From: Labrys monachus
GTDB taxonomy: Bacteria > Pseudomonadota > Alphaproteobacteria > Rhizobiales > Labraceae
DNA: 64,000 nt
Assembly (NCBI RefSeq): GCF_030814655.1
Contig: NZ_JAUSVK010000001.1
Coordinates: forward strand, 4,099,001-4,163,000
Direction: 5' to 3'
Part shown: one piece after another, positions 10,194-56,180 of the stretch
Layout of the letters: each line of letters begins with the position of its first letter
Numbering within the stretch: the first letter of the stretch is position 1
Notes under the pieces: generated by a model
What the model was told of the DNA's origin: nothing
The model's database searches: none
What the model saw: only the letters and a program-made list of their open reading frames with translations
Made by a program: the position numbers and the translations under genes

Positions 10194-11807
10194 CCTTCTC
10201 CCGAGCCAGGCTGTGCGAGAACTCCGCGCAGTCTTGGATTGTGTCCGGAACCTGTGGGCGAGGAAGATTGATTTCATAGTGGATTTGCTTTGAGGGCTTC
10301 CAGGAGGGCTGGAATGCCCAGGATTGCGGTAACCCGCTTGAGATTGAAGCCCAGGACGGCGAGAGCCAGTTCAGCTTTTGCCTTCTGGAGGCCTCGCAGC
10401 AGGAAGCGGGGATAGCCCAGCATCCATTTGATGGTGCCGAAGGGATGCTCTGCCAGTTGGCGCCGCTGCTTCATCAGGGTCGGGTTCTCGATGGTGCGCC
10501 GATGCATGGCCTGGCGAGCGTCCTCATAAAGGTGGCGCGTGATCTGCCGGCTCTGAGCCTTGGTGCATTTGGGTTTCAGGGCACAGCCGCCGCAGGCTGT
10601 GGTCGAGTAGCGCTTCTCCTGCTCGGTCTGGGAGATGCAACGAAGCGAGAGGATCTCTCCCGCGGGACAGGTCCAGCTGTCGCTGGCCGCATCATAGGAG
10701 AAGGCCTCGCGGCTGAAGAGGTCGCCATTCCTGGCATTGACGGTCTTTTGGCGAGGAACCGCAGCCGTGATGCCCGCCGATGCGCAGGCCTCGCCCTGCT
10801 CGCCATTGGAATAGCCGGTATCGGCGACCACGGCGAGGCTTTCCACCTCCAGCGCCTCCTTGGCCGCCTGAGCCATCGGCAGGAGCTGGGCCTGATCGTT
10901 GCAATCGTTGATCAAGTCGAACTGCGCAATCAGGCCATGCTTGTCATCCACGACGCTCTGGGCATTGTAGGCAACCTGATGGCCGTGGCGGGCTGTCTTC
11001 ATCAGGCGTGCCTCGTCCTCGCCGATCACCTTCTGGCTGAGCCCCGCGGCAGCCAGATCCCGGGCCTGGGCCTGGATCTCCTCGCGTCGCACACGCAGGC
11101 TCGCAAGGGCTTTGGCGACATCCTCCGGTCTGGTTTGAGCCTCGGCCGCGGCCTCCTCGCGATCGGCTTGATCCATCGCCTTCAGATGATCGGCAATCCG
11201 AGCGTCGAGCTTGGCCATCCGCTTCTCCAGTTCCTTGGGCGTGATCACCTTCTTGCGACTGGCAACGGCTTCGATCTTGGTTCCGTCTAGAGCTACCAGC
11301 TCTCCACCATACAGGGACTGGCCACGGCAGAACCGGATGAAGGATCGGCACACCCCTATGATCGCCTCGACATGCTCCTTGCGGAAATCGGCAATCGTCT
11401 TGAAGGAAGGCGTCACGCGGTTGACCAACCATTGTACCTCGATATTGCGCACGGCTTCCCGTTCGAGGCTGCGGCTGGAGCGTATACGGTTCAGGTAACC
11501 ATAGACGTACAGCTTCAGTAGATCGGCAGGCCGATAGGGCGGCCGGCCTGTTGCTTCGGCTTCGACTTTCGAAAATTTCAGCCCATTCAAATCAAGGCCA
11601 TCGACAAAGGCATCGATGACACGCACCGGATGATCACCACAAACAATCTCATCAAGGCTCGAAGCCACCAGAGATCGTTGATAGCGCGATTCTCCAACAA
11701 CATGTGCCATAATGATCCTCCGATACTGTAGAATAACATTACAGCATATTCTAAGTACTTTGGGAATCGCTCGGACGGGTTTTCACACAGCCTGGAGCGG
11801 GAGAAGG
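10194..11807. mobile_element. IS1182-type insertion sequence with terminal inverted repeats
   Basis: The element carries one transposase gene. Its ends are inverted repeats 10206-10222 and 11779-11795 (CCAGG... and ...CCTGG outward), and the match continues outward through CCTTCTCCC (10194-10202) and GGGAGAAGG (11799-11807), giving 25 of 29 identical positions. The inner pair probably marks the element proper (about 1.6 kb) and the outer pair a palindromic target. The true borders cannot be fixed without an empty site. No clear target duplication is visible. It lies between tyrS and pssA and breaks no recognisable gene. Confidence 0.8.
10274..11710 (-). CDS. IS1182 family transposase
   Basis: 478 residues, full length for the family. 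The N-terminal DUF772-type domain contains GRPPYRPADLLKLYVYGYL. The DDE residues are probably in LVALDGTKIEA, VVADTGYSNGE and AEHPFGTIKWMLG. A Cys-rich stretch (TCPAGE ... CGGCALKPKC, about residues 345-390) precedes the last catalytic block, as is usual. The middle (about 155-230) is Glu/Ala/Arg-rich and probably coiled. No frameshift or stop is seen, so it may be active. It transposes the flanking inverted repeats. Confidence 0.95.
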   Translation of the reverse strand: MAHVVGESRYQRSLVASSLDEIVCGDHPVRVIDAFVDGLDLNGLKFSKVEAEATGRPPYRPADLLKLYVYGYLNRIRSSRSLEREAVRNIEVQWLVNRVTPSFKTIADFRKEHVEAIIGVCRSFIRFCRGQSLYGGELVALDGTKIEAVASRKKVITPKELEKRMAKLDARIADHLKAMDQADREEAAAEAQTRPEDVAKALASLRVRREEIQAQARDLAAAGLSQKVIGEDEARLMKTARHGHQVAYNAQSVVDDKHGLIAQFDLINDCNDQAQLLPMAQAAKEALEVESLAVVADTGYSNGEQGEACASAGITAAVPRQKTVNARNGDLFSREAFSYDAASDSWTCPAGEILSLRCISQTEQEKRYSTTACGGCALKPKCTKAQSRQITRHLYEDARQAMHRRTIENPTLMKQRRQLAEHPFGTIKWMLGYPRFLLRGLQKAKAELALAVLGFNLKRVTAILGIPALLEALKANPL

Positions 11808-38002: not shown

Positions 38003-38049
38003 CCGCGTCAGGCAGAGCCGCCGACCGGCAGACTCGATGGGCGTGAAGC

Positions 38050-38070: not shown

Positions 38071-38273
38071 CCCCATTCGCCCGTCCAGCGCACCCCATCG
38101 CACCGGGAAGCCGCTTTATCGGGCTGATTTGCGGGACAAAGAGAGGCAATTTGCCTAGAAGAAAGGCAAATATCGCCACTTTTTCATTGCGGACGCCTCC
38201 ATCGCACATTGATCCCTTGCCGGCCCCATCGAACTCCCTCAGAGTGTGCGCAGGCGGGAATCCGGAGGCATGT

Positions 38274-39689
38274 ATGGTGGCGTTTGACGAGATGACCTTG
38301 AGCGACGGCACGATTCGACCTGCCTATGCCGATCTCGCCCACTGGCTCGCCACGACACCCAAGGAATTGCTGACGCACCGACGAAACGAGGCGGAACTCC
38401 TGTTCCGGCGCATCGGCATCACCTTCGCGGTCTATGGCGACAAGGACGGCGCCGAACGCCTCATTCCCTTCGACATCATTCCGCGCATTCTCGCGGCGAA
38501 GGAATGGGCATCGCTCAAGCGCGGCCTCGAGCAGCGCGTGCGCGCGCTCAACATGTATATCCGCGACGTCTACGGCAAGCGCGAGGTGGTGCGCGCCGGC
38601 GTCGTGCCGGAAGACCTCATCTTCAACAATCCTGCGTTCCGGCCGGAAATGGCCGGCCAGAGCGTGCCGCACGACGTCTACGTCCATATCGCCGGCATCG
38701 ACATCGTGCGGATGGACGCCGACACCTTCTATGTCCTGGAAGACAATGCGCGCACTCCTTCGGGCGTCTCCTACATGCTGGAGAACCGCGAAGTGACGAT
38801 GCGCCTCTTCCCCGAGGTGGTGGCGCGGCATCGCATCGCGCCGGTCGAGAACTACACCGACGAGTTGCTGGCGACGCTGCGCTCGATCGCCCCGCGCTCG
38901 GCCTCGTCGGAGCCGGTGGTCGTGCTGCTCACGCCGGGCATGTATAATTCGGCCTATTACGAGCATTCCTTCCTCGCCGACCGGCTCGGCATCGAGATCG
39001 TCGAAGGGCGCGATCTCTTCGTCCGCGACGAGATCGTCTATATGCGCACCACCGAGGGGCCGCGGCGCGTCGACGTGATCTATCGCCGCATCGACGACGA
39101 ATTCCTCGACCCCCTCGTCTTCCGGCCCGATTCGGCACTCGGCGTCCCCGGGCTGATGACCGCCTATCTGGCCGGAAACGTCACGCTCACCAACGCGGTG
39201 GGCACCGGCGTCGCCGACGACAAGGCGGTCTACTCCTATATGCCGGAGATCGTGCGCTTCTTCCTCGGCGAGGAGCCGATCCTCCACAATGTGCCGACAT
39301 GGCGCTGCAGGGAACCCGACGCCCTCGCCTATGTCGTCGATCACCTGTCGGACCTGGTGGTGAAGGAAGTGTCGGGATCGGGTGGCTACGGCATGCTGAT
39401 CGGCCCGCACGCGACCAAGGAGCAGATCGCCGAATTCCGCACCCGGCTGGAGGCCCATCCCTTCAACTATATCGCCCAGCCGACGCTGGCCCTGTCGACA
39501 TGCCCCTGCTATGTCGACGAGGGGCTGGCGCCGCGCCACGTCGACCTGCGCCCCTTCGTGCTCACGGGCTCGGACAAGATCCGCATCGTTCCGGGAGGCC
39601 TGACCCGCGTCGCATTGAAGGAGGGATCCCTGGTGGTCAATTCCAGCCAGGGCGGCGGCACGAAGGATACGTGGATCCTCGATCGATGA
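38274..39689 (+). CDS. circularly permuted ATP-grasp protein (Anbu cluster)
   Basis: 471 residues from the ATG after CCGGAGG; the longer frame from 38037 lacks a ribosome site and runs through non-coding sequence. It belongs to the DUF404/DUF407 family of circularly permuted ATP-grasp ligases. FYVLEDNARTPSGVSYMLENR and KEVSGSGGYGMLIGP (about 363-378) are the nucleotide-binding blocks, and NSSQGGGTKDTWIL closes the protein. Such enzymes are predicted to make a carboxylate-amine bond through an acyl phosphate. It is the first gene of the conserved group with alpha-E, transglutaminase and Anbu peptidase. Product unknown. Confidence 0.88.
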   Translation: MVAFDEMTLSDGTIRPAYADLAHWLATTPKELLTHRRNEAELLFRRIGITFAVYGDKDGAERLIPFDIIPRILAAKEWASLKRGLEQRVRALNMYIRDVYGKREVVRAGVVPEDLIFNNPAFRPEMAGQSVPHDVYVHIAGIDIVRMDADTFYVLEDNARTPSGVSYMLENREVTMRLFPEVVARHRIAPVENYTDELLATLRSIAPRSASSEPVVVLLTPGMYNSAYYEHSFLADRLGIEIVEGRDLFVRDEIVYMRTTEGPRRVDVIYRRIDDEFLDPLVFRPDSALGVPGLMTAYLAGNVTLTNAVGTGVADDKAVYSYMPEIVRFFLGEEPILHNVPTWRCREPDALAYVVDHLSDLVVKEVSGSGGYGMLIGPHATKEQIAEFRTRLEAHPFNYIAQPTLALSTCPCYVDEGLAPRHVDLRPFVLTGSDKIRIVPGGLTRVALKEGSLVVNSSQGGGTKDTWILDR

Positions 39690-39743
39690 CCCGCATCCCG
39701 CACGCCTGCCTCCCGCCTTCCATGCCTCTTCGGACTGACCACC

Positions 39744-40685
39744 ATGCTTTCACGTACCGCCGATAATCTCTTCTGGCTGGCTCGCTACGTGGAACGGGCC
39801 GAATATCTCGCCCGCATTCTCGATGCCGCCTATCGGCTCTCCTCCCTGCCCGCATCCTATGGCGGCGTCACCACCGAATGGGAAAGCGCCGTGGAAACGG
39901 CGGGCTGCGGGCCGGCCTTTTCGGCCTGCTACGACGAAGCCAACGAACGCACCGTGATGGAATTCCTGGCGTTCTCGCCCGCCAACCCCTCCTCGATCCG
40001 CAATTGCTTCGAACTGGCGCGCTCCAACGCCCGCGGGATCCGGACGGCGCTGACGACCGAGATGTGGTCGACCATCAACGATGCCTGGCTGCAGCTCAAG
40101 AACTACGATCCCTCGCGCATGAGCCGCGAGGAGGTGTCGCGCTTCCTCGAATGGGTGAAGGGCGTCTCCTTGATGTTCGACGGCTCGGCCTACCGGACGA
40201 TGCTGCGCAACGACGCCTATGCCTTCGCGCGAATCGGCCTCTTCCTGGAGCGGGCCGACAACACCGCCCGCATCCTCGACGTGAAATACCACGTTCTCCT
40301 CCCCCCTTCGGAAAGCGTTGGCGGCAGCCTCGATTATTTCCAGTGGACCGCGATCCTCAGGGCCGTTTCCGCGCTCACGGCCTATCACTGGGTCTACAAG
40401 GAGAGCCTCAAGCCGTGGCTGGTGGCCGACCTCCTGACGCTCAACCTGCAGATGCCGCGTTCGCTGGCGTCATGCTACGAGAATGTGAGCCATCATCTCG
40501 ACGAACTCGCGCAGGTCTATGGCCGGCAGGGTCCCTCCCAGCGCCTTGCCCGGGTAACCCAGTCCCGCCTGCGCAATCTGAGCATCGAGGAGGTGTTCCA
40601 GTCCGGACTGCATGATTTCGTGACGGACTTCATCACCGACAACAACAATCTGAGCGCGGCGATTGCCGAACAATATCTCATCTGA
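39744..40685 (+). CDS. alpha-E domain protein (DUF403, Anbu cluster)
   Basis: 313 residues, almost wholly helical. The N-terminal MLSRTADNLFWLARYVERAEYLARILDAAYRL is the family hallmark. ARSNARGIRTALTTEMW and LERADNTARILDVKYHVLLP are later conserved blocks. No catalytic role is known; it is thought to be the partner of the ATP-grasp protein. It begins 54 bp after that gene and ends 20 bp before the transglutaminase. Confidence 0.9.
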   Translation: MLSRTADNLFWLARYVERAEYLARILDAAYRLSSLPASYGGVTTEWESAVETAGCGPAFSACYDEANERTVMEFLAFSPANPSSIRNCFELARSNARGIRTALTTEMWSTINDAWLQLKNYDPSRMSREEVSRFLEWVKGVSLMFDGSAYRTMLRNDAYAFARIGLFLERADNTARILDVKYHVLLPPSESVGGSLDYFQWTAILRAVSALTAYHWVYKESLKPWLVADLLTLNLQMPRSLASCYENVSHHLDELAQVYGRQGPSQRLARVTQSRLRNLSIEEVFQSGLHDFVTDFITDNNNLSAAIAEQYLI

Positions 40686-40705
40686 GGCCGGCAAGGAGGC
40701 ATGAC

Positions 40706-41551
40706 ATGCGCATCCGCGTCGCTCACGATACGCTCTATCGCTACGAGCGCCCCGCAAAATCGGTGATTCAGACCCTGCGGCTCACGCCGCGCTCGCATGA
40801 CGGCCAGCATATCGTGCGCTGGCGCATCACTGTCGACCAGGACGTGCGGCTGTCCGAATCGGAGGATGCCTTCGGCAACGTCACCCATGTGTTCTCCGCC
40901 GCGGGCACCATCGAAGAGATGCATGTGCGGGTCGAGGGCGAAGTCGAGACCCATGACAGGGCGGGCGTGGTTCGCGGCGTGATCGAGCGCTTCCCCGTTT
41001 CGCTCTATCTGCGCGAGACTGCCCTCACCCAGGCGGACGAGGCGATCCGGGATTTCGCCCAGGCCGTCGCCGGCAATGAAGGCAGCCCTCTCGGGGCCGC
41101 CCATGCGCTGATGCAGGCCATCCACGAACGCGTCGCATTCGTCAGCGATCCCAAGCAGGCGGCCACGACCATCACCGAGGCGTTCGGCGCCGGACGGGGC
41201 ATCTGCCAGGATATGGCCCACCTGTTCATCGCCTGCGCGCGCCAGCTCGGCATTCCCGCCCGCTATGTCAGCGGCCTGCTCTACCGCCCCGGCGGCGAAG
41301 AGGCGAGCGCCAATGCCAATCATGCCTGGGCGGAAGCCCATATCGACGGCCTCGGCTGGATCGGCTTCGACCCCTCGCTCGAGCTGTGTCCAATGGAGTG
41401 CCATATCCGCGTCGCCGCCGCGCTCGACTATCTCGGTGCGGCGCCGATGCGCGGGGCCTATTATGGCGGCGACGGCGAGAAGCTCGACGTCAAATTCGAG
41501 ATCAGCGAAAGGTCGCCGCGATCGCAGGCCCAGCACCAGTCGCAGGGCTGA
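40706..41551 (+). CDS. transglutaminase-like protein (Anbu cluster)
   Basis: 281 residues, AAGGAGG before the ATG. The N-terminal beta-rich domain (about 1-80, MRIRVAHDTLYRYERPAKSV) is the bacterial transglutaminase N-domain. The papain-like triad is Cys in GRGICQDMAHLF (about 171), His in NHAWAEAHI (about 210) and Asp in GWIGFDPS (about 225). Such proteins may hydrolyse or transfer amide bonds. In the cluster it may act on the product of the ATP-grasp enzyme. Confidence 0.92.
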   Translation: MRIRVAHDTLYRYERPAKSVIQTLRLTPRSHDGQHIVRWRITVDQDVRLSESEDAFGNVTHVFSAAGTIEEMHVRVEGEVETHDRAGVVRGVIERFPVSLYLRETALTQADEAIRDFAQAVAGNEGSPLGAAHALMQAIHERVAFVSDPKQAATTITEAFGAGRGICQDMAHLFIACARQLGIPARYVSGLLYRPGGEEASANANHAWAEAHIDGLGWIGFDPSLELCPMECHIRVAAALDYLGAAPMRGAYYGGDGEKLDVKFEISERSPRSQAQHQSQG

Positions 41552-41687
41552 CCGCCCTCGCGCAGCGCGCCTGCCGCAATTGCCGGTTTGCGCGCATGCC
41601 GTCTTGCTCTAAAGGGACGCCTTGGGGGTGGCCGGCGGCGCGAAGTCGCGGCGCCTGGTTTCGTGGCTTGCGCCGGGAGTGGAGTCG

Positions 41688-42455
41688 ATGACCTATTGCG
41701 TCGGAATTTCGGTGCGTGACGGCCTCGTGATGATCGCGGATACGCGCACCAATGCGGGCATCGACAACATCGCCACCTTCCGCAAGCTCCATGTCTTCGA
41801 GGAGCCCGGCGAGCGCATCATGGCCATGTGCACCTCCGGCAATCTCTCGGTCAGCCAGGCCGTGCTGAACTACGTCCAGGAAGGCATGGAGAATACCGAG
41901 ACGGGCGTCGTCGATACGCTGATGACGATGCCGAGCATGTTCAAGGCGGCGCAGCTCATCGGGCGCGCCATCCGCACGGTATATGAAACCGACGGCCGCA
42001 GCCTCGAGGAGCACAACAGCCGCTTCGATGTCGCCATCCTCTTCGGCGGCCAGATCCGGGGCGGCAAGATGCGGCTCTTCATGATCTATTCCGCCGGCAA
42101 TTTCATTGAGGTGACCGCCGACACCCCCTATCTCCAGATCGGCGAGCACAAATATGGCAAGCCCATCCTCGACCGGGCGGTCAACTTCAACACGGATATT
42201 CCGGACGCTCTCAAGATCGGCCTGATCTCGATGGACTCGACCATGCGCTCCAATCTGGGCGTCGGCATGCCCATCGACATCATGGTCGCCCATCGCGACG
42301 CGCTGAAGGCCGACATCAACTACCGGATCGAGCCGGGGGAACCTTATTATCACGACCTGCGCGAGCGCTGGTCGGCCGCGCTGCGGGCGGCCCACATCGC
42401 CATCCCCCGCCCGCCCTATGCGACGGGCAAGAACGGCGTGCTCGATGCGGGCTGA
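41688..42455 (+). CDS. Anbu proteasome-like peptidase (BPH)
   Basis: 255 residues from the ATG giving MTYCVGISV; the frame upstream carries no typical residues. After Met removal, Thr at position 1 would be the N-terminal nucleophile, with Asp in ADTRTNAG (about 17) and Lys in FRKLHVF (about 33). This is the ancestral-beta-subunit family related to proteasome beta subunits and HslV, which assembles into helical or ring oligomers. Proteolytic activity on known substrates has been hard to show. It ends the four-gene cluster, 136 bp after the transglutaminase. Confidence 0.93.
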   Translation: MTYCVGISVRDGLVMIADTRTNAGIDNIATFRKLHVFEEPGERIMAMCTSGNLSVSQAVLNYVQEGMENTETGVVDTLMTMPSMFKAAQLIGRAIRTVYETDGRSLEEHNSRFDVAILFGGQIRGGKMRLFMIYSAGNFIEVTADTPYLQIGEHKYGKPILDRAVNFNTDIPDALKIGLISMDSTMRSNLGVGMPIDIMVAHRDALKADINYRIEPGEPYYHDLRERWSAALRAAHIAIPRPPYATGKNGVLDAG

Positions 42456-42546: not shown

Positions 42547-44673
42547 TCAAGGGTTTGACAAGATGCCGTCGTCGGTCTCCCAGCCGATCGCGCGCCGCAG
42601 GAAAGCGTGGCCGAGGGCGATGAAGGAAGCCCGCTCGCTGTTGTCCTTGCCGTAGCCGTGCCCGCCGGCCTCCGGCTCGTAGAAGGAAGCTTCATAGCCC
42701 AGATCCTGGAGCTTGGCCGCCATCTTGCGGGCATGGCCGGGATGGACACGGTCATCCCGGCGGGTGGTCGCGATCAGAATCGGCGGATAGGGGCGATCGG
42801 CTTCGGCGCGATGATAGGCCGAGATGTCGCGGAGGAACGCCCAGTCGGCCGGCCGGTCCGGATCGCCATATTCGTCGATCCAGCTGGCGCCGGCGAGGAG
42901 CTTCGAATAGCGGCGCATGTCGATCAACGGGATGGTGCAGAACAGGGCGCCGAAGCGTTCGGGATATCGCGTCAGCATGTTGGCGATCAGAAGACCCCCG
43001 TTCGAGCCGCCCTCGGCGGCGATTCGGCCGGGCCGCGTCACGCCGCGCTTGACCAGATCCCGGGCCACGGCCGCGAAGTCGTCATGGGAGAGCCGCTTGC
43101 CCTCCCGGCGCCCGGCATCGTGCCAGCGCGAGCCGAACTCACCGCCGCCACGAATATTGGCGATGACGCTGGTGCCGCCGCGTTCGAGCCACAGCTTGCC
43201 GACGGCCGAGCCGTAATGAGGCTCGACCGTGACACCGAAGCCGCCATAGCCGGTCATGTGAACGGGCGCCTCGCCGGTGACGGCGGCCGGCCCCACCTGG
43301 ACATAGGGAATCGCCTCGCCGTCGATCGAGACGGCGCTGTGGCGGGTGACGACCAGCCCCGAGGCGTCGAACGACGCCGGGCTGCGTTTCAGCAGCATCG
43401 GCGCACGGGGCTCGGCGGCCCCTTCGGCGATGTCGAGCAGGAGAATCTGCGGCGGCGTGACCGGATCTTCCACGGCGACGAGAAGCTCGCCATTGCTCTC
43501 GCTTTCATCCTCGTCGAGCGACCACAGGCTGACGACGCCCTTCCCGGGCAGATTGTCGATCGGATGCCGCTCCCAGCCATGACCTTCCGGAAACGCCGGC
43601 TCGGCGGGGACAGCGATCTCGAAGACGGGTTCGAGATTGTCCATGACCGACAGGACCAGGCGTCCGGCATTCCAGAAGAAGGCCTTCAGCACCCGCCGCT
43701 CGCCCGGCTCGAACAGCGTCGCGAACCGACGCTCCCCGGCGAGGAAGGCGAACAAGGAGATGCCGAGCAGCGTGTCGGCCGCATGGGTCGCCCCGCCGAC
43801 CGTCCATGCCTTGCGCGGCTTCACGGCCAGCCAATCGCCGAAGACGTTCCAGGCGGCATCGAGCGGCAGGTCGAGGCGCTGGCGGGGCCCGCTCCGGTCG
43901 CCGACCCAGCCGATCGTATCGAAAAAGGCCGGTTTTTCCAGAAACCAGAGCCTTTCGCCGCCGGCCGTCCGATCGACCTCCGCCCACACGCTCATCGCAT
44001 CGGCCGTGGTCTCGAAGATCACCGGCGCCGCGAGCGGATCGGCGCCGCGCCGCCACAGGCGTATGGTGCGCGCATAGCCCGAGCGGGTCGCCATGCCTTC
44101 GCCGAGGCTGCTCGCCATCGCGACGGTATCCCGGTCGATCCATGCCAGGCCTCCCTTGGCCTCCGGCAGGACGAAGCCGCCGGCGACGAAGCGGCGCTCC
44201 TCCAGGTCGAACTCGCGATGCATGGCGGCATCGCTGCCGCCGCGCGACAGCCTCGCCAGGGCACGCTGTGGCCGGGCACCCGCCTCGACCGCGGCGCCCG
44301 CCCAGATCCAGTCCTCCCCCTCGGTGCAAGCGAGGGCATCGAGGTCGAGCAGCACTTCCCATTGCGGCTGCGCCTGGGCATAGGAGGCCAGGGTGGTGCG
44401 CCGCCACAGGCCGCGCGGATTCCCGGCATCCTTCCAGACATTGTAGACATGGCATCCGTGGCGGGTGACGAGCGGGATCCTGTCGGGCCGGTCGAGGATG
44501 GCGGCGAGGGTGTCGCGATCCTGTTCGAAGCCTGTGCCGCCGAAGCGCCGCAGGGTTGCCGCATTCTGGCGGGAGACCCAGGCGATGGCTTCGCTGCCCT
44601 CGACGGCCTCGAGCCAGAGGCGGGGGTCGTCGTCAGGGTCGGCGATGGTCGGACGGGAGTCGCGCTGCGTCAT
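42547..44673 (-). CDS. S9 family prolyl oligopeptidase-type peptidase
   Basis: 708 residues from the ATG giving MTQRDSRPTI; an in-frame ATG 11 codons upstream is less likely. The N-terminal beta-propeller (about 50-410) begins with DPRLWLEAVEG. The catalytic domain has Ser in EGGSNGG (about 554), Asp in RRDDRVHPGH (about 641) and His in GGHGYGKDN (about 677). It cleaves after Pro in short peptides, probably in the cytoplasm, as there is no signal peptide. It converges on the Anbu cluster. A link to that system is only positional. Confidence 0.9.
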   Translation of the reverse strand: MTQRDSRPTIADPDDDPRLWLEAVEGSEAIAWVSRQNAATLRRFGGTGFEQDRDTLAAILDRPDRIPLVTRHGCHVYNVWKDAGNPRGLWRRTTLASYAQAQPQWEVLLDLDALACTEGEDWIWAGAAVEAGARPQRALARLSRGGSDAAMHREFDLEERRFVAGGFVLPEAKGGLAWIDRDTVAMASSLGEGMATRSGYARTIRLWRRGADPLAAPVIFETTADAMSVWAEVDRTAGGERLWFLEKPAFFDTIGWVGDRSGPRQRLDLPLDAAWNVFGDWLAVKPRKAWTVGGATHAADTLLGISLFAFLAGERRFATLFEPGERRVLKAFFWNAGRLVLSVMDNLEPVFEIAVPAEPAFPEGHGWERHPIDNLPGKGVVSLWSLDEDESESNGELLVAVEDPVTPPQILLLDIAEGAAEPRAPMLLKRSPASFDASGLVVTRHSAVSIDGEAIPYVQVGPAAVTGEAPVHMTGYGGFGVTVEPHYGSAVGKLWLERGGTSVIANIRGGGEFGSRWHDAGRREGKRLSHDDFAAVARDLVKRGVTRPGRIAAEGGSNGGLLIANMLTRYPERFGALFCTIPLIDMRRYSKLLAGASWIDEYGDPDRPADWAFLRDISAYHRAEADRPYPPILIATTRRDDRVHPGHARKMAAKLQDLGYEASFYEPEAGGHGYGKDNSERASFIALGHAFLRRAIGWETDDGILSNP

Positions 44674-45045
44674 GGAATGTCTCGCATCGTGTCGTGTGGC
44701 GGCCACAATAGCCGCCTTTCGGCCGCCGGTGCCAAGCCCGGAGAGCCCGGGGAACGCGGGAGCGAATCGGAGCCTTCGGGTGGTTGCGGCAAAAGGCTGA
44801 TCGACATTGACAAAGTATGGCGGTATTTGTTCGACGAATCGGAAGGAACAACCGGTTCCCGCCGCGATCGTGTTGCCGAAACCATCCGGTCGGCACCGCG
44901 ATTCCGGTGCAGTTCAGCAACAATATCCGGAAAATAGCGCGCGTGATGCCGATTTCCGCGCGGCCTCGTTCTTCTGGCCGTGGATATCCGCATCGGGATG
45001 GAAATACCAAGCGCACCCTGCGGTACGAATTGTCGGACTTGAAGA
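44674..45045. other. 372-bp divergent intergenic region
   Basis: No gene is supported. AT-richer than its surroundings in the right half. TTGACA occurs at 44807-44812 without a convincing -10 partner. It should contain promoters for the peptidase (leftwards) and the DUF930-like gene (rightwards). Confidence 0.45.
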
Positions 45046-45441
45046 ATGAAAAGAATACTTCTCATCGCAGCTCTCGCCGTGGTGTCGGTCGCCCCTGCGA
45101 CTGCCCGCAACAACAACAAGACGGAGGCGAGCCTCGCCAAGCTTGCGCCGTCGGACCGCTTCCAGCAGGTCTGCGACATCGCCCTCATGGAGAAGTTGCG
45201 CCACGAGAAGCGCGCCTACCGCCCAGACAGCGTCATCGCCTATGCGCTGGATGACCCGAGCATTTCAGGCGACACGCTGCACGGCGATGGCGGCGCCTTT
45301 CGCAGCCATGGCGTCTGGTATCAATATTCCTTCACCTGCGCCGCGACTCCCGACCGCATGCGCGTCCTCTCGCTGGAGTACACGGTCGGCGAGGCGGTCC
45401 CGAGGAACGAATGGGACGCGCACGGATTATCGATCCATTGA
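45046..45441 (+). CDS. DUF930-like secreted protein with duplicated 3' end
   Basis: 131 residues. A signal peptide (about 1-20, ending ATA-R) precedes a small domain with LAPSDRFQQVCDIALMEKL and DGGAFRSHGVWYQYSFTC, which fits DUF930. Two Cys (about 43 and 102) may pair in the periplasm. The last 19 codons lie in a 69-bp tandem duplication; the stop is inside the first copy, so the protein is unchanged and the second copy is untranslated. Function is unknown. Confidence 0.75.
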   Translation: MKRILLIAALAVVSVAPATARNNNKTEASLAKLAPSDRFQQVCDIALMEKLRHEKRAYRPDSVIAYALDDPSISGDTLHGDGGAFRSHGVWYQYSFTCAATPDRMRVLSLEYTVGEAVPRNEWDAHGLSIH

Positions 45442-45523
45442 TCGGCCGGACGCTTCGGCGAGGCGGTCCCGAGGAACGAATGGGACGCGCACGGATTATC
45501 GATCCATTGATCGGCCGGACGCT
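45386..45523. repeat. 69-bp tandem duplication at the end of the DUF930-like gene
   Basis: Copy 1 (45386-45454) contains the last codons and stop, and copy 2 (45455-45523) repeats it exactly. The unit length is 23 codons, so the same reading frame recurs after the stop. The identity of the copies means a recent event. Confidence 0.9.
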
Positions 45524-45567
45524 TTCGTCCTTCCCCTCGATCCGGCGCGTCAGGAGCGTCAGGAGCG

Positions 45568-46170: not shown

Positions 46171-46543
46171 AATTGGGCCAAACTCGAGGTATCATCGACC
46201 CGGCTTATAGCTGGGGTCTGCGACAATTTCGAGATGAATGAACGCTTTCTGCGGAGGAGGCCAATAAAATTGAACAAATCCTGTGCACCTGTTGTCGTTT
46301 TGCCGCAGTTTGGTGCTCGTCGACTCATGGCCGGGGCCGCTGCCGCAGCAGGGACGGGATGCGCCGGGAGCCGGCGCGACGATTGTCCGGAAAGTTTCCG
46401 GCTTCCGTCTTGACCGTCGAAAATCGGGGGTCCAGATTGAAATCGTTCTGACCTGCTTCATGAGAGTCCTCTGTCCGCCGGCGCGGAAATCACCGCCGGA
46501 GGAACGGAGGGCAACAGGTCGCGAACCGGTTTTGGAGGACCCC
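46171..46543. other. 373-bp region upstream of coxS
   Basis: No gene is supported; an open frame on the minus strand here (to 46767) runs antisense into coxS and is not credible. It is AT-richer at 46160-46300. It should hold the promoter of the molybdenum hydroxylase operon and of exoD. Confidence 0.45.
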
Positions 46544-47041
<498 letters not shown>

Positions 47042-47154
47042 GCCCCTATGCCTTCGCGTGATGCCCCGCATACGCCTTCGGCGGAAGTTCGTTCGCCGAA
47101 GAGAACAAGGCCGCCTTCGAAGCGGCTCCGTCCAGCATAATGGGAGAGAACGCC

Positions 47155-49524
<2,370 letters not shown>

Positions 49525-49530
49525 TCGAGG

Positions 49531-49558
49531 CGGGCATGCCTCTTGCATGCCCGTTTTT
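49531..49558 (+). terminator. rho-independent terminator/attenuator between coxL and coxM
   Basis: CGGGCATGC (49531-49539) and GCATGCCCG (49545-49553) form a perfect 9-bp stem with a 5-base loop, followed by TTTTT. It starts six bases after the coxL stop, inside what should be one operon. Confidence 0.8.
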
Positions 49559-49613
49559 CAGTTTCGGCAGGAGCTCGCCCGAGCGCCTGCCTTCATCGGG
49601 AGATGAATGAACC

Positions 49614-50411
49614 ATGTACCCCTTCACCTATCAGCGCCCCACCTCCATCCAGGACGCGGTCGCCGCCTTCGCCGCGGCCGAGGACGCCAAGCTGATCGCC
49701 GGCGGCCACACGCTGCTGCCGACCATGAAGCTGCGCCTCGCCAGCCCGGCCACGCTGATCGACCTCAACAAGGTCGAGGGCCTGTCCGGCATCGAGATCC
49801 AGGGCGACGACGTCGTGATCGGCGCCATGACGCGCCATGCCGACGTCGCGACCAGCGCGGCGGTGGGCGAGGCCATTCCGGCCCTGGCGGCGCTGGCCGG
49901 CCTGATCGGCGACCCGGCGGTGCGCTCGCGCGGCACCATCGGCGGCTCGATCGCCAACAACGACCCGGCCGCCGATTACCCGGCCGCGGCCCTGGCGCTC
50001 GGCGCCAGCATCATCACGGACCGGCGGACGATCGCGGCGGATGATTTCTTCACCGGGATGTTCGACACCGCCCTCGAAGAGGGCGAGATCGTCACCAAGG
50101 TCTCCTTCCCCATCCCGGGCCGGGCGGCTTATGAGAAATTCCGCAATCCGGCGTCGCGCTACGCGCTGGTCGGCGTCTTCGTCGCCGAAAAGGACGGTGC
50201 CGTACGCGTGGCAATCACCGGTGCCGGCTCGAACGGCGCGTTCCGCCACGCAGCGGCCGAGGAAGCGCTGTCGGGCCGCTTCGACGCCGCGGCTCTCGAC
50301 GGCGTCACCGTGTCGGCCGACGAACTCAACGGCGATATCCATGCCAGCGCGGAATATCGTGCCCATCTGATCGGTGTGCTGACCCGCAGGGCCGTCGCCG
50401 CGGCACAGTGA
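49614..50411 (+). CDS. coxM: molybdenum hydroxylase medium subunit, FAD-binding (CoxM type)
   Basis: 265 residues. The first FAD motif is AGGHTLLP (about 25-32, family AGGHSLLP) and the second is TIGGSIANNDPAADYPAAA (about 110-128), both near full. The C-terminal CO_deh_flav_C domain follows. It takes electrons from the Fe-S clusters of CoxS. Start at ATG after a weak AGATGAATGAACC region. It lies 89 bp after coxL, with a terminator hairpin between, so its expression may be lower or conditional. Confidence 0.93.
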   Translation: MYPFTYQRPTSIQDAVAAFAAAEDAKLIAGGHTLLPTMKLRLASPATLIDLNKVEGLSGIEIQGDDVVIGAMTRHADVATSAAVGEAIPALAALAGLIGDPAVRSRGTIGGSIANNDPAADYPAAALALGASIITDRRTIAADDFFTGMFDTALEEGEIVTKVSFPIPGRAAYEKFRNPASRYALVGVFVAEKDGAVRVAITGAGSNGAFRHAAAEEALSGRFDAAALDGVTVSADELNGDIHASAEYRAHLIGVLTRRAVAAAQ

Positions 50412-50860
50412 TCCCCACGTCGCGAAGGCGGCGGACATAGGCTCCCATGCGCCGGCCCCCCCTCCGAGGCCGGCGCGCGTCCGTGATGTCCGCCGCTTCC
50501 CTGCCGATACCCCGGCCCTGCCCCGCGCCGGCAGGCGGCGCCGTTCTTCCCGGCCAAGCCCCCCAGCCTACAGCGGGGCGGCTGCAAGCGCAGCACTCCG
50601 TTCCCCCCACGCCGAATCGCCCCCGTCCCGCCGGCGCACGCGCCCTGCCCCATTCGAGGGCCCTGCCGCGGCGTGACGGCGCCGACGCGCCGATCAGCCC
50701 GGTCCATGCGGCGACAGGACACAGTTCCGACCCGTCCGGCGCCGGTGCGGCGTGGTCGGGCTCCTTCGCAGCGCGGTTTCGCGCCTGGATCGCGCGATAA
50801 GGTTTTGCTACGCCCCGGCCAGACTTATCCTATAGTGGGCCGTGCACTCAGGAGATCATT
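50412..50860. other. 449-bp intergenic region, no credible gene
   Basis: Very GC-rich and Pro/Arg/Ala-coding in all frames; the 117-codon frame at 50447-50800 has no ribosome site or domain and is rejected. A TATAGT at 50831-50836 could be a -10 for the coxD gene, but the nearest -35-like TTGCTA lies 20 bp away. Confidence 0.45.
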
Positions 50861-51775
50861 TTGCCTTCTCTCCCCACCTCGATCGACGAGACCGCTTCGC
50901 TCCTCGCCAAGGCCGATTATGTCGCCGGACGCGATCTTTCCACCGTCCTGTTCCTGGCGCTGCGCATGGGTCGGCCGCTTTTCCTCGAAGGCGAGGCCGG
51001 GGTCGGCAAGACCGAGATCGCCAAGGTGCTGTCCGCCACGCTCGGCCGGCCGCTGATCCGCCTGCAATGCTATGAGGGGCTCGACATCGCATCCGCCGTC
51101 TATGAGTGGAACACCATGGCGCAGATGGTCGAGATCCGCTTGGCCGAGGCGACCGGGGACATCGATCGGGCAAGCCTCGGTTCGGACCTGTTCTCGGAGC
51201 GCTTTCTCATCGCCCGGCCGATCCTGGAGGCCGTGCGTCCACAGGTGGGCGGCGCCCCCATCCTGCTGATCGACGAGCTCGACCGCACGGACGAAGCCTT
51301 CGAGGCCTATCTGCTCGAAGTGCTTTCCGACTTCCAGGTCACCATACCCGAGTTCGGTACCATCAAGGCGGGCGAACCGCCCATCGTCATCATCACCTCG
51401 AACCGTACCCGCGAGATCCACGACGCCCTGAAGCGGCGCTGCCTCTATCATTGGGTCGATTATCCGAGCGCCGGCAACGAACTCGAAATCCTGCGCCGCA
51501 AGGTGCCGCATGTGCCGGAGAAGCTGTCGCGCGAGATCGTCGCCTTCGTCCAGGCCCTGCGCGGCGAGGACCTGTTCAAGGCGCCCGGCGTCGCCGAGAC
51601 GCTGGACTGGGCGACCGCGCTCACCGAGCTCGACGCCGTCGCGCTCGATCCTGCCCTCGTCTCCGACACGCTCGGCGTGCTCCTCAAATACCAGGACGAT
51701 ATCGCGCGGCTGTCGGGCAGCGAGGCCAAGCGGATCATCGACAACGTCAGGGCGGGCGTCGATGCCGCCACCTGA
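50861..51775 (+). CDS. coxD: MoxR-type AAA+ ATPase (CoxD)
   Basis: 304 residues from a TTG start with AGGAGA five bases before it. Walker A is GEAGVGKTEI (about 45-54), Walker B is LLIDELDR (about 139-146), and sensor 1 is ITSNRTR. MoxR proteins work with VWA-domain partners; CoxD is needed for full assembly of the Mo active site in CO dehydrogenase. It overlaps the VWA gene by 14 bases, so the two are co-translated. Confidence 0.92.
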   Translation: MPSLPTSIDETASLLAKADYVAGRDLSTVLFLALRMGRPLFLEGEAGVGKTEIAKVLSATLGRPLIRLQCYEGLDIASAVYEWNTMAQMVEIRLAEATGDIDRASLGSDLFSERFLIARPILEAVRPQVGGAPILLIDELDRTDEAFEAYLLEVLSDFQVTIPEFGTIKAGEPPIVIITSNRTREIHDALKRRCLYHWVDYPSAGNELEILRRKVPHVPEKLSREIVAFVQALRGEDLFKAPGVAETLDWATALTELDAVALDPALVSDTLGVLLKYQDDIARLSGSEAKRIIDNVRAGVDAAT

Positions 51776-52976
51776 CGACCTCCAGCCGGGACGGCTCGCC
51801 GACAATATCGCCTATTTCGCCCGATGCCTGCGCGAGGTCGGCATGCCGATCGGCCCCGCCTCGGTGCTCGATGCCATCCGGGCCGTCGAGGCAGCGGGGC
51901 TGGGCGCCAGGGAGGATTTCTACTGGACGCTGCATTGCGTCTTCGTCACCCGGCACGAGCAATCGCTGCTGTTCCGCCAGGCCTTCGACCTGTTCTGGCG
52001 CAAGCGTGCCTTGACGGAGAAGCTGATCGCCATGATGTCGCCGGTGGCGGCGTCGCTGAAGGAGAAGGACAAGCCGAAGGCCGGTTCGCAACGCGTCAAC
52101 GACGCCTTCTACAAGGAGCCTCCGCGCCAGCGGGAGGAGGAGCGGCTGGTCGAATTCGACGCCAAGCTGACGATGTCCGAACGCGAGGTCCTCAAGGACA
52201 AGGACTTCGCGCAGATGACGTCAGCCGAAATCGCCGCCGCCCAGCGCGAAATGGCGCGGCTGCGCTTGCCTTTCGACCAGGTGCGCACCCGCCGCCTCGT
52301 CGCCGGCGGCGACACCGTCATCGATCTGAGGCGCACCTTGCGGGCCAGCATGCGCAGCGGCGGCAACCTCATCGACATCGCCTGCCGCCGCCCGGGCCAA
52401 AAGCACCCGCCCATCGTCGCCCTGTGCGACATTTCGGGTTCGATGGCGGATTATTCACGGCTTTTCCTGCATTTCCTCCATGCGATCTCCGAGAAGGGCC
52501 GCCGGGTCCACGCCTTCGTGTTCGCGACGCGGCTGACCGACATCACCCGCGCCCTGCGCGCCCGCGATCCCGACGAGGCGCTGGAGCGCGCCGCCAGGGA
52601 CGTGAAGGACTGGGACGGCGGCACGCGCATCTCCCATTGCCTCGAACGCTTCAACAAGGATTGGTCCCGGCGCGTGCTCGGCCAGGGCGCCCTGGTGCTG
52701 CTGATCACCGATGGGCTCGAACGGCAGGTCGACACCGTGCTCGCCCGCGAGCTCGACCGGCTGCACCGCTCCTGCCGGCGGCTGATCTGGCTCAATCCGC
52801 TCCTGCGCTTCGACGCGTTCGAGGCGCGGGCCGCCGGCATCAAGGCGATGCTGCCCCATGTTGACGAATTCAGGACGATCCACAATCTCAGGAGCATGGG
52901 CGATCTGGTGAAGGCACTGGATCGCAGCGCCGATGCCGCGGCCGATCCGCGGGCATGGCTCAGAAAGGCTGGATAG
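51762..52976 (+). CDS. coxE: VWA-domain protein (CoxE)
   Basis: 404 residues from the ATG giving MPPPDDLQ, overlapping coxD by 14 bases. The long N-terminal part (about 1-220) is helical. The VWA domain carries the MIDAS residues in CDISGSMADYS (about 222-232), then Thr in GGTRI (about 287) and Asp in ITDGLER. It is the usual partner of MoxR-type CoxD in Cox enzyme maturation. It is followed directly by the XdhC-type genes. Confidence 0.93.
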   Translation: MPPPDDLQPGRLADNIAYFARCLREVGMPIGPASVLDAIRAVEAAGLGAREDFYWTLHCVFVTRHEQSLLFRQAFDLFWRKRALTEKLIAMMSPVAASLKEKDKPKAGSQRVNDAFYKEPPRQREEERLVEFDAKLTMSEREVLKDKDFAQMTSAEIAAAQREMARLRLPFDQVRTRRLVAGGDTVIDLRRTLRASMRSGGNLIDIACRRPGQKHPPIVALCDISGSMADYSRLFLHFLHAISEKGRRVHAFVFATRLTDITRALRARDPDEALERAARDVKDWDGGTRISHCLERFNKDWSRRVLGQGALVLLITDGLERQVDTVLARELDRLHRSCRRLIWLNPLLRFDAFEARAAGIKAMLPHVDEFRTIHNLRSMGDLVKALDRSADAAADPRAWLRKAG

Positions 52977-55748: not shown

Positions 55749-56180
55749 CGATAATCTATATTTCTACGGGCAATCTCTGCTTGTGGTTTGAACCATTCCA
55801 CGTTGGATTTCGACTTCGATTGCTGGATGCCGAATTTTTGATCGGGAATAGAGAGATTCGTCAAAAGTTGGAGAGCCATTCCGGCCCGTTCCCCGCCGGC
55901 GCGCCACGGCCGAGGCCGAAATCGGTGGCGATCAGGCTGGTTTGACGCGTTTTCCGCCATTTAATGCCCAGAAATTGCCCTTCTGCCCAAAAAATTCGTG
56001 AATTCCACAATCTTGCCGCCATGATCGCGCCAGTCGATTGTCAGGTTCCATTCCCCTTGCTATGAACAGGATACGTCGATTGACTGCCTGTCTCTTAGGC
56101 ACAAGCTCCGCCGGATTCTTGCGGAGACCGTGTCGGAGAAAGAACAAAGGCGGCGACGGCAAAGGGGAAGTTCATAGACG
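55749..56180. other. 432-bp AT-richer intergenic region upstream of livH
   Basis: No open frame with gene-like codon use. The base composition is clearly richer in AT than the rest of the window. A small hairpin CTCCGC/GCGGAG lies near 56105-56126. It probably carries the promoter of the liv operon, but no -35/-10 pair stands out. An undetected small RNA is possible. Confidence 0.5.

Follow-up and report, generated by a model that had tools for sequence, protein, structure and literature searches.

Anbu, a proteasome-like protein, is known from published crystal structures, which are described without substrate or activity in the accessible parts of the reports (PMC5666114, 2017; PMC6376114). 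Its gene has been described as the last of a four-gene operon that also encodes a circularly permuted ATP-grasp ligase, an alpha-E protein and a transglutaminase-like protein (PMC6376114, PMC5666114; Valas and Bourne 2008 and Iyer 2009 as cited there). According to both papers, Iyer 2009 proposed a peptide synthesis or modification system combined with a hydrolase for these genes; protein tagging is among the published hypotheses (PMC6376114), and Connectase, a relative of Anbu, is reported to be a ligase (PMC8665760). Here we analyse such a cluster in a stretch of 64,000 nucleotides (the window) from the genome of Labrys monachus, a single contig of 6.92 Mb, and describe a putative NtrC-type site upstream of the ATP-grasp gene, which the cluster shares with a second, Anbu-less cluster of the same genome.

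Several published data sets bear on the regulation of these gene families. NtrC of Sinorhizobium meliloti binds a site of the form TGC-N11-GCA, as reported from electrophoretic mobility shift assays and footprinting (PMC10746234). In an ntrC mutant of Burkholderia cenocepacia the DUF404/407, DUF403, transglutaminase and large transglutaminase genes were down 8.2, 9.4, 9.4 and 6.0-fold, respectively; they are listed as common sigma-54 and NtrC targets, and the accessible part of the paper names no Anbu gene alongside them (PMC5491218). The domains encoded by these genes (I35_5080-83) resemble those of the Anbu-less cluster. PP_2686 to PP_2688 of Pseudomonas putida, of which PP_2687 and PP_2688 can be inferred from the operon to be alpha-E and ATP-grasp, were up 11 to 37-fold under nitrogen limitation, and the reported values for the proteasome-like gene PP_2685 were 1.12, 4.81 and 1.45-fold (PMC7801951). 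In marine metagenomes these domains were tied to domains of urea metabolism (PMC3597751). We found no paper that names both Anbu and NtrC in a literature search that left most subscription papers outside, and no Anbu gene is named in the accessible part of a Caulobacter NtrC paper. We set aside Pseudomonas aeruginosa Rlo and also a paper on membrane vesicles; as far as their accessible parts tell, they concern other ATP-grasp or transglutaminase genes.

The cluster in the window is an ordinary copy of the published operon. It agrees with that operon in the four families, their order, the catalytic residues and the lack of an AAA+ partner in the cluster, and we found no protein difference from the operon as it is described in the accessible parts of PMC5666114 and PMC6376114. 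The preliminary description of this DNA had claimed a complete Anbu cluster with all four families in order on one strand, 54, 20 and 136 bp apart, and this was borne out by the open reading frames (ORFs), by Pfam and by direct readout of the sequence; judged from the sequence, such gaps are compatible with a single transcription unit. Thr2 of Anbu and the Cys-His-Asp triad of the transglutaminase-like protein, which it had also named, were read directly as well, and the peptide synthesis or modification system with a protease that it mentioned agrees with the proposal of Iyer 2009 as far as that is cited in PMC6376114 and PMC5666114. This part of the earlier interpretation therefore stands, and its suggestion of a partnership with a neighbouring S9 peptidase gene does not (see below). 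What it overlooked is that the cluster is split in four congeners, that a second, Anbu-less cluster exists, and that both clusters have a nitrogen-type upstream site in common. The start of the ATP-grasp gene was set at 38274, although the reading frame could start further upstream, from an ATG at 38037, because the homologues begin there. What this analysis adds to the published operon is the regulatory signature upstream of the genes and the split in the four congeners.

The ATP-grasp gene is preceded by an inverted repeat, TTGCCT-N7-AGGCAA (Table 1), whose TTGC-N11-GCAA frame conforms to TGC-N11-GCA. The exact repeat has two copies in the 6.9-Mb genome, one in front of the Anbu cluster and one at C1:934693-934711, which is 39 bp upstream of the first gene (predicted TTG start) of a second cluster extending from C1:934751 to about C1:940631. 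In the second cluster alpha-E and ATP-grasp are encoded in one frame, which lies behind a frame of 1109 aa with a transglutaminase domain and DUF2126. It thus contains the same three enzyme families under the same upstream repeat, and differs from the Anbu cluster by the lack of Anbu, by the fusion of ATP-grasp and alpha-E in this genome, and by the extra DUF2126 domain; an Anbu search of the genome found no second Anbu. All five species of the genus have the repeat at their second cluster with up to two mismatches, its start lying 58 to 61 bp upstream of the first gene. The presence of a second cluster in the same cell may mask the effect of single deletions.

The signature upstream of the Anbu-type cluster reaches well beyond the genus. 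For the motif analysis we collected 148 loci (the window and L037-L183), of which 139 yielded upstream regions; nine were excluded, having either no ATP-grasp match at 1e-100 (as with the diverged ATP-grasp of L093) or less than 300 bp upstream, and L236 and L237, which carry neither of the two signals described below, were added to reach 141. The ATP-grasp starts were placed by tblastn projection, and the regions upstream of other long ORFs of the same loci with high GC content at third codon positions, some of which may be coding, served as controls. AGGCAA/TTGCCT had the lowest p value of all six-letter words seen in at least eight regions, occurring within 200 bp upstream of ATP-grasp in 50 of 139 loci vs 130 of 1631 controls. 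Within 250 bp in front of the ATP-grasp gene, 68/141 loci have TGC-N11-GCA, as opposed to 137/2092 control regions (Fisher 4e-37). The conservation is specific for the N11 spacing, which was present in 49% of the 139 regions, compared with 4 to 19% for the other spacings between N4 and N18. Since the loci are related, and the 141 include four near-copies, we also counted one locus per named label (N11 in 19/51; other spacings from 5 to 17 in 1 to 8 of the 51) and, in the set of relatives, one locus per family (18/35). All five species of the genus have the N11 site in front of ATP-grasp.

A second signal, the sigma-54 -24/-12 pattern TGGC-N7-TTGC, was present in 55/141 loci and in 13/2092 controls (20/51 with one locus per label, 5/35 with one per family), and replacing N7 by other spacings between N3 and N13 reduced the count to between 0 and 3 of the 139 regions. 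The two signals stood together in 27/141 regions vs 3/2092 controls, and most Bradyrhizobium loci carry the N11 site as well as the -24/-12 pattern. The arrangement resembles the rhizobial NtrC promoters (PMC10746234, in its accessible part) in the putative binding site TGC-N11-GCA and, in many relatives, in the -24/-12 pattern; unlike in those promoters, the sigma-54 pattern was not found in the genus of the window. TGC-N11-GCA also occurred in front of the second cluster, in 12 of the 36 regions obtained from 39 loci (two loci have no DUF2126 gene and one is cut), four of the five species of the genus among them. NtrC itself is present in all five genomes of the genus, above the TIGR01818 cut-off and with the GAFTGA motif. 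On inspection, without a formal test, the glnII and amtB regions of three congeners (G001, G002 and G003) each had at least two TGC-N11-GCA sites upstream, and the amtB gene of L. monachus has one about 0.7 kb upstream; its genome gave no glnII match at 1e-40, and a pattern search for the expected glnK gene found nothing.

Anbu stands apart from this pattern. Anbu genes that are separated from the transglutaminase gene, or have none in their stretch, had an N11 site upstream in 1/23 and a sigma-54 pattern in 0/23 cases, and those linked to it had an N11 site upstream in 10/97 and the sigma-54 pattern in 0/97, all of which is near the control rate. The position of the gene is also looser. Among 80 loci, the best of the 591 stretches confirmed among the matches listed by an alpha-E profile scan, some of them cut by contig ends, 62 have the four genes in the same order on one strand, 12 have no Anbu, four have ATP-grasp and alpha-E only, and two have ATP-grasp, alpha-E and Anbu; counting only the 58 loci with full flanks, Anbu was present in 47. 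ATP-grasp and alpha-E are never more than 1 kb apart in the 80 loci, and the distance between the transglutaminase gene and Anbu exceeds 1 kb in 8/62. In 100 genomes (L. monachus and relatives) alpha-E and ATP-grasp were each found in 67 and Anbu in 57, all 57 of which carry alpha-E and ATP-grasp as well (Fisher 6.5e-18, uncorrected for kinship). The 10/67 genomes with alpha-E and ATP-grasp and no Anbu match include G028, whose contig ends inside the transglutaminase gene, and G091, which has the fused type only. In three other species of the genus (G001, G002, G003) ATP-grasp, alpha-E and transglutaminase lie together, with Anbu about 10 kb off, and in a fourth (G004) the cluster is rearranged. 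Gene position, promoter signal and, in one P. putida table (PMC7801951), expression all mark Anbu as the member with the weakest tie to the core.

Two clusters of the genome share the regulatory signature, which for the core is found well beyond the genus; we therefore place the core in the nitrogen-starvation response and leave Anbu as its looser partner. In our judgement the locus, a standard Anbu cluster, probably takes part in the response to nitrogen starvation and carries out amide-bond chemistry by which nitrogen is re-used. When nitrogen is short, phosphorylated NtrC would bind the TGC-N11-GCA site, and the ATP-grasp, alpha-E and transglutaminase genes would be expressed together with the second, Anbu-less cluster that bears the same site. 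The ATP-grasp enzyme, with its predicted glutathione-synthetase-like fold, and alpha-E would use ATP to activate a carboxylate and couple it to an amine; that amide would be moved or broken by the transglutaminase-like Cys-His-Asp protein, and Anbu, as a Thr1 hydrolase, would trim or remove the product. Amide nitrogen or amino acids would presumably be re-used as the net effect. We infer NtrC as the protein bound at the site in L. monachus, as well as each of these chemical steps and the physiological purpose. Our reading of the whole is an amide-bond module for nitrogen starvation to which Anbu is loosely attached as a partner. More tentatively, Anbu may not be the centre of the operon at all: the nitrogen-controlled unit might be the ATP-grasp/alpha-E/transglutaminase core, present twice in the genome under one shared NtrC-type site, making or remodelling an amide-bonded product that saves or re-uses nitrogen, with alpha-E as a new helical fold serving the ligase and Anbu as an optional end-processing hydrolase or ligase with its own expression. 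The promoter signature, seen across many alphaproteobacterial families, suggests that the system is on in nitrogen starvation, and thereby when to look for its function and which three genes matter first; the loose tie of Anbu may explain why work on Anbu alone saw no activity.

A number of observations weigh against the assignment to the nitrogen response. In L. monachus the repeat, with one mismatch tolerated, is hardly more frequent than a reversed-pattern control (9 vs 7), and the exact core TGCCT-N7-AGGCA occurs 6 times compared with 5 for its control. The number of sites is thus uninformative, and it is their positions that carry the information: four of the six exact cores lie upstream of genes (those of the two clusters, a transporter operon of the branched-chain-amino-acid type in this window and, next to a LysR gene, the gene of an amino-acid-type binding protein), and the remaining two are inside long open frames (the genes at the cores were named by eye). 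TGGC-N7-TTGC was absent upstream of ATP-grasp in all five species of the genus (0/5), from the glnII loci of four congeners, and from the regions upstream of the second cluster (0/36). Outside the genus the N11 site of the second cluster (8/31, p 7e-4) makes a weak case, other spacings reaching up to 6/31. Neither signal was seen in 18/51 named labels, among them two Caulobacterales metagenome-assembled genomes, Brevundimonas and Dokdonella. In P. putida the induction was reported in all three strains, one of them an rpoN mutant, which argues against strict dependence on sigma-54 (PMC7801951). On the side of the chemistry, none of the peptides tried was cleaved by purified Anbu, and no specific interaction of Anbu with the other three proteins was detected, as far as the accessible part of PMC6376114 tells.

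It is worth comparing this interpretation with other ways of reading the same data. If a different regulator bound the inverted repeat, the link to nitrogen would be an accident of similar geometry. The missing sigma-54 pattern in the genus and a site count hardly over control would fit such a regulator, which we nevertheless regard as improbable, since the signal is specific for N11 across many families, coincides with the sigma-54 pattern far more often than in the controls, and has counterparts at the glnII and amtB genes of congeners; the published NtrC dependence of the Burkholderia cluster points the same way (PMC5491218, in its accessible part). As to the chemistry, ATP-grasp and alpha-E could make a glutathione-like or amine-capped peptide serving as nitrogen reserve or carrier, with Anbu or the transglutaminase-like protein as the amidase. 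The resemblance of the ATP-grasp model to glutathione and glutathionylspermidine synthetases (see below), the existence of the core without Anbu and the metagenomic tie to urea metabolism domains (PMC3597751, in its accessible part) all suit a route of this kind, but the fold by itself does not settle whether the substrate is a small molecule or a protein, and we consider the small-molecule route somewhat unlikely.

Still less likely, in our opinion, is tagging in the manner of the Pup-proteasome system, in which the ligase pair would tag proteins in nitrogen starvation and Anbu would degrade them, the amino acids being recycled. Mycobacterial pupylation serves amino-acid recycling in starvation, and a ligase gene adjoining that of a proteasome-like subunit behind a nitrogen-type promoter would suit a similar role, as does the presence of tagging among the hypotheses already in print for Anbu. 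Against it, the cluster has no AAA+ unfoldase, Anbu was not found in ten of the alpha-E-bearing genomes (one of them, as mentioned, cut by a contig end), and unlinked Anbu genes are without the nitrogen signal in all but one of 23 cases. Nor do the absence of detected peptidase activity and of specific interactions (PMC6376114) and the induction of P. putida Anbu by just 1.1 to 4.8-fold (PMC7801951) favour it, so far as the accessible parts of these papers go. RimK belongs to another group of ATP-grasp enzymes, and RimB to a different hydrolase family. The RimK/RimB pair, in which an ATP-grasp ligase is likewise opposed by a hydrolase, can be cited as an analogy only (PMC12239564, in its accessible part).

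Table 1. Positions, strands and main properties of the cluster genes and associated elements in the window.
Feature	Position	Strand	Properties
Inverted repeat TTGCCT-N7-AGGCAA	38151-38169		NtrC-type TGC-N11-GCA at 38152-38168; ends 104 bp before the ATP-grasp ATG
Circularly permuted ATP-grasp ligase, 471 aa	38274-39689	+	PF14403, E 2.2e-167
Alpha-E protein, all helical, 313 aa	39744-40685	+	PF04168, E 9.9e-96
Transglutaminase-like protein, 281 aa	40706-41551	+	PF08379 1e-21, PF01841 1e-23; Cys167-His206-Asp222
Anbu, proteasome-like N-terminal nucleophile (Ntn) hydrolase, 255 aa	41688-42455	+	N-terminus Met-Thr; PF00227 3.5e-8
S9 prolyl-oligopeptidase-family gene, outside the system	42547-44706	-	Converging; PF00326 5e-39, PF02897
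Second TGCCT-N7-AGGCA	56085-56101		79 bp before LivH-type ATP-binding cassette (ABC) permease gene 56181 (PF02653)

Among solved structures the ATP-grasp protein has a single near relative, 3n6x (phmmer 2e-206), which its AlphaFold2 model (predicted local distance difference test score, pLDDT, 81.7) matches with a template modelling (TM) score of 0.87. The next matches of the model are glutathione and homoglutathione synthetases and glutathionylspermidine synthetase, with TM scores of about 0.4 to 0.6 (glutathione synthetases about 0.5 to 0.6), and the model supports a predicted carboxylate-amine ligase of the glutathione-synthetase class. The model of alpha-E is confident and consists of helices throughout (pLDDT 92.1, predicted TM score 0.90). 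By sequence no solved relative was found with E below 0.4, and the model had no Foldseek match in the PDB at E<=0.001, a search in which all-helical folds are easily missed; alpha-E may, on the evidence of the model, be a new helical fold, and deriving its function from the fold was given up. Its invariant residues include many arginines and an ER motif (R14, E17, R18, R93, R97, R100, E169, R170, R176, R206, R239), from which one might guess at an acidic ligand. In the transglutaminase-like protein, which has a distant solved relative in 3isr, D222 is invariant among 23 sequences, and C167 and H206 are each kept in 90% or more of them. The Anbu protein has as its five best solved relatives Anbu entries or entries titled 'Peptidase' (5loy 4e-80, 5nyj 6e-70, 5lox 3e-67). 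Its Thr2, Asp18 and Lys33, invariant in 24/24 aligned Anbu sequences, correspond to the set Thr1, Asp17 and Lys32/33 as numbered after removal of the methionine, and Thr is residue 2 in 56/56 relatives at start codons placed by projection.

Other copies of the repeat were also noted. The second core of the window (Table 1), for which 0.07 are expected per 64 kb, has a counterpart before the LivH-type permease gene in two congeners (L245, L248). In two congeners a copy with one mismatch has a BadF-type ATPase/amidohydrolase pair on one side and a carbohydrate phosphorylase gene on the other (L246 2067-2085, L247 2013-2031). Predicted terminators and sigma-70 promoters were not above shuffles, and two terminator-like matches on the minus strand overlap the repeat itself.

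The S9 gene does converge on Anbu, as the preliminary description had said, and this orientation is what speaks for its working with the cluster. A homologue was present in 0/56 stretches around Anbu in relatives (tblastn, 1e-5; mostly 20 kb, a few shorter, with that of congener G002 extending only 0.7 kb past Anbu) and in one of 80 further named loci (L140), where it is upstream on the opposite strand; in congeners G003 and G001 the genes after Anbu are a DoxX-type ORF and then DUF930, without S9. The gene is thus rarely a neighbour, and the idea that it is a meaningful, conserved one, which had been offered on the understanding that rarity would speak against it, is refuted; that it is a partner of the cluster seems to us extremely improbable. 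A Usg-like gene (PF06233) is a commoner neighbour than S9, converging on Anbu in 14 stretches of relatives at a median of about 1 kb downstream, for example at L041 13302-13694.

Among the genes upstream, methionine aminopeptidase (MAP) and RadC were considered as a functional link, MAP possibly exposing Thr1. Their homologues were found in 15/56 and 17/56 stretches, and we judged this to be ordinary gene order because the pair also lies within 1 kb in 36 of 43 relatives that lack Anbu. No candidate for a fifth cluster gene came near the frequency of the four in the 57 stretches (the window and 56 relatives): the commonest other families were an ABC-ATPase class (18), Usg-like (14), MAP (14), phosphoribosyltransferase (12), SfsA (11), RadC (11) and a MoCF-type gene (10). 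The gap between transglutaminase and Anbu is longer than 600 bp in 16 loci, and in three of these ATP-grasp and alpha-E themselves lie inside it; of the genes in such gaps two kinds recur in Bradyrhizobium-type loci and none more widely. The insert of about 10 kb that separates the transglutaminase gene from Anbu in a congener (L038 6820-17269) encodes a flavin adenine dinucleotide (FAD)-linked oxidase, a 551-aa frame without Pfam match, a LysR regulator, an ABC ATPase, a binding protein and a permease. A polyamine link by way of this insert was dropped, the insert having been seen in congeners alone.

Elsewhere in the window, genes of the carbon monoxide (CO)/xanthine-dehydrogenase type occupy 46283-52976, with MoxR-like AAA and CoxE-like proteins downstream, and several of them have homologues near Anbu in 4 to 8 stretches, the window itself being counted. 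A perfect tandem duplication of 69 bp (2.0 copies, 45386-45524) spans the end of the DUF930 gene, and a DDE transposase gene (10274-11710; PF13751, PF05598) likely marks an insertion sequence.

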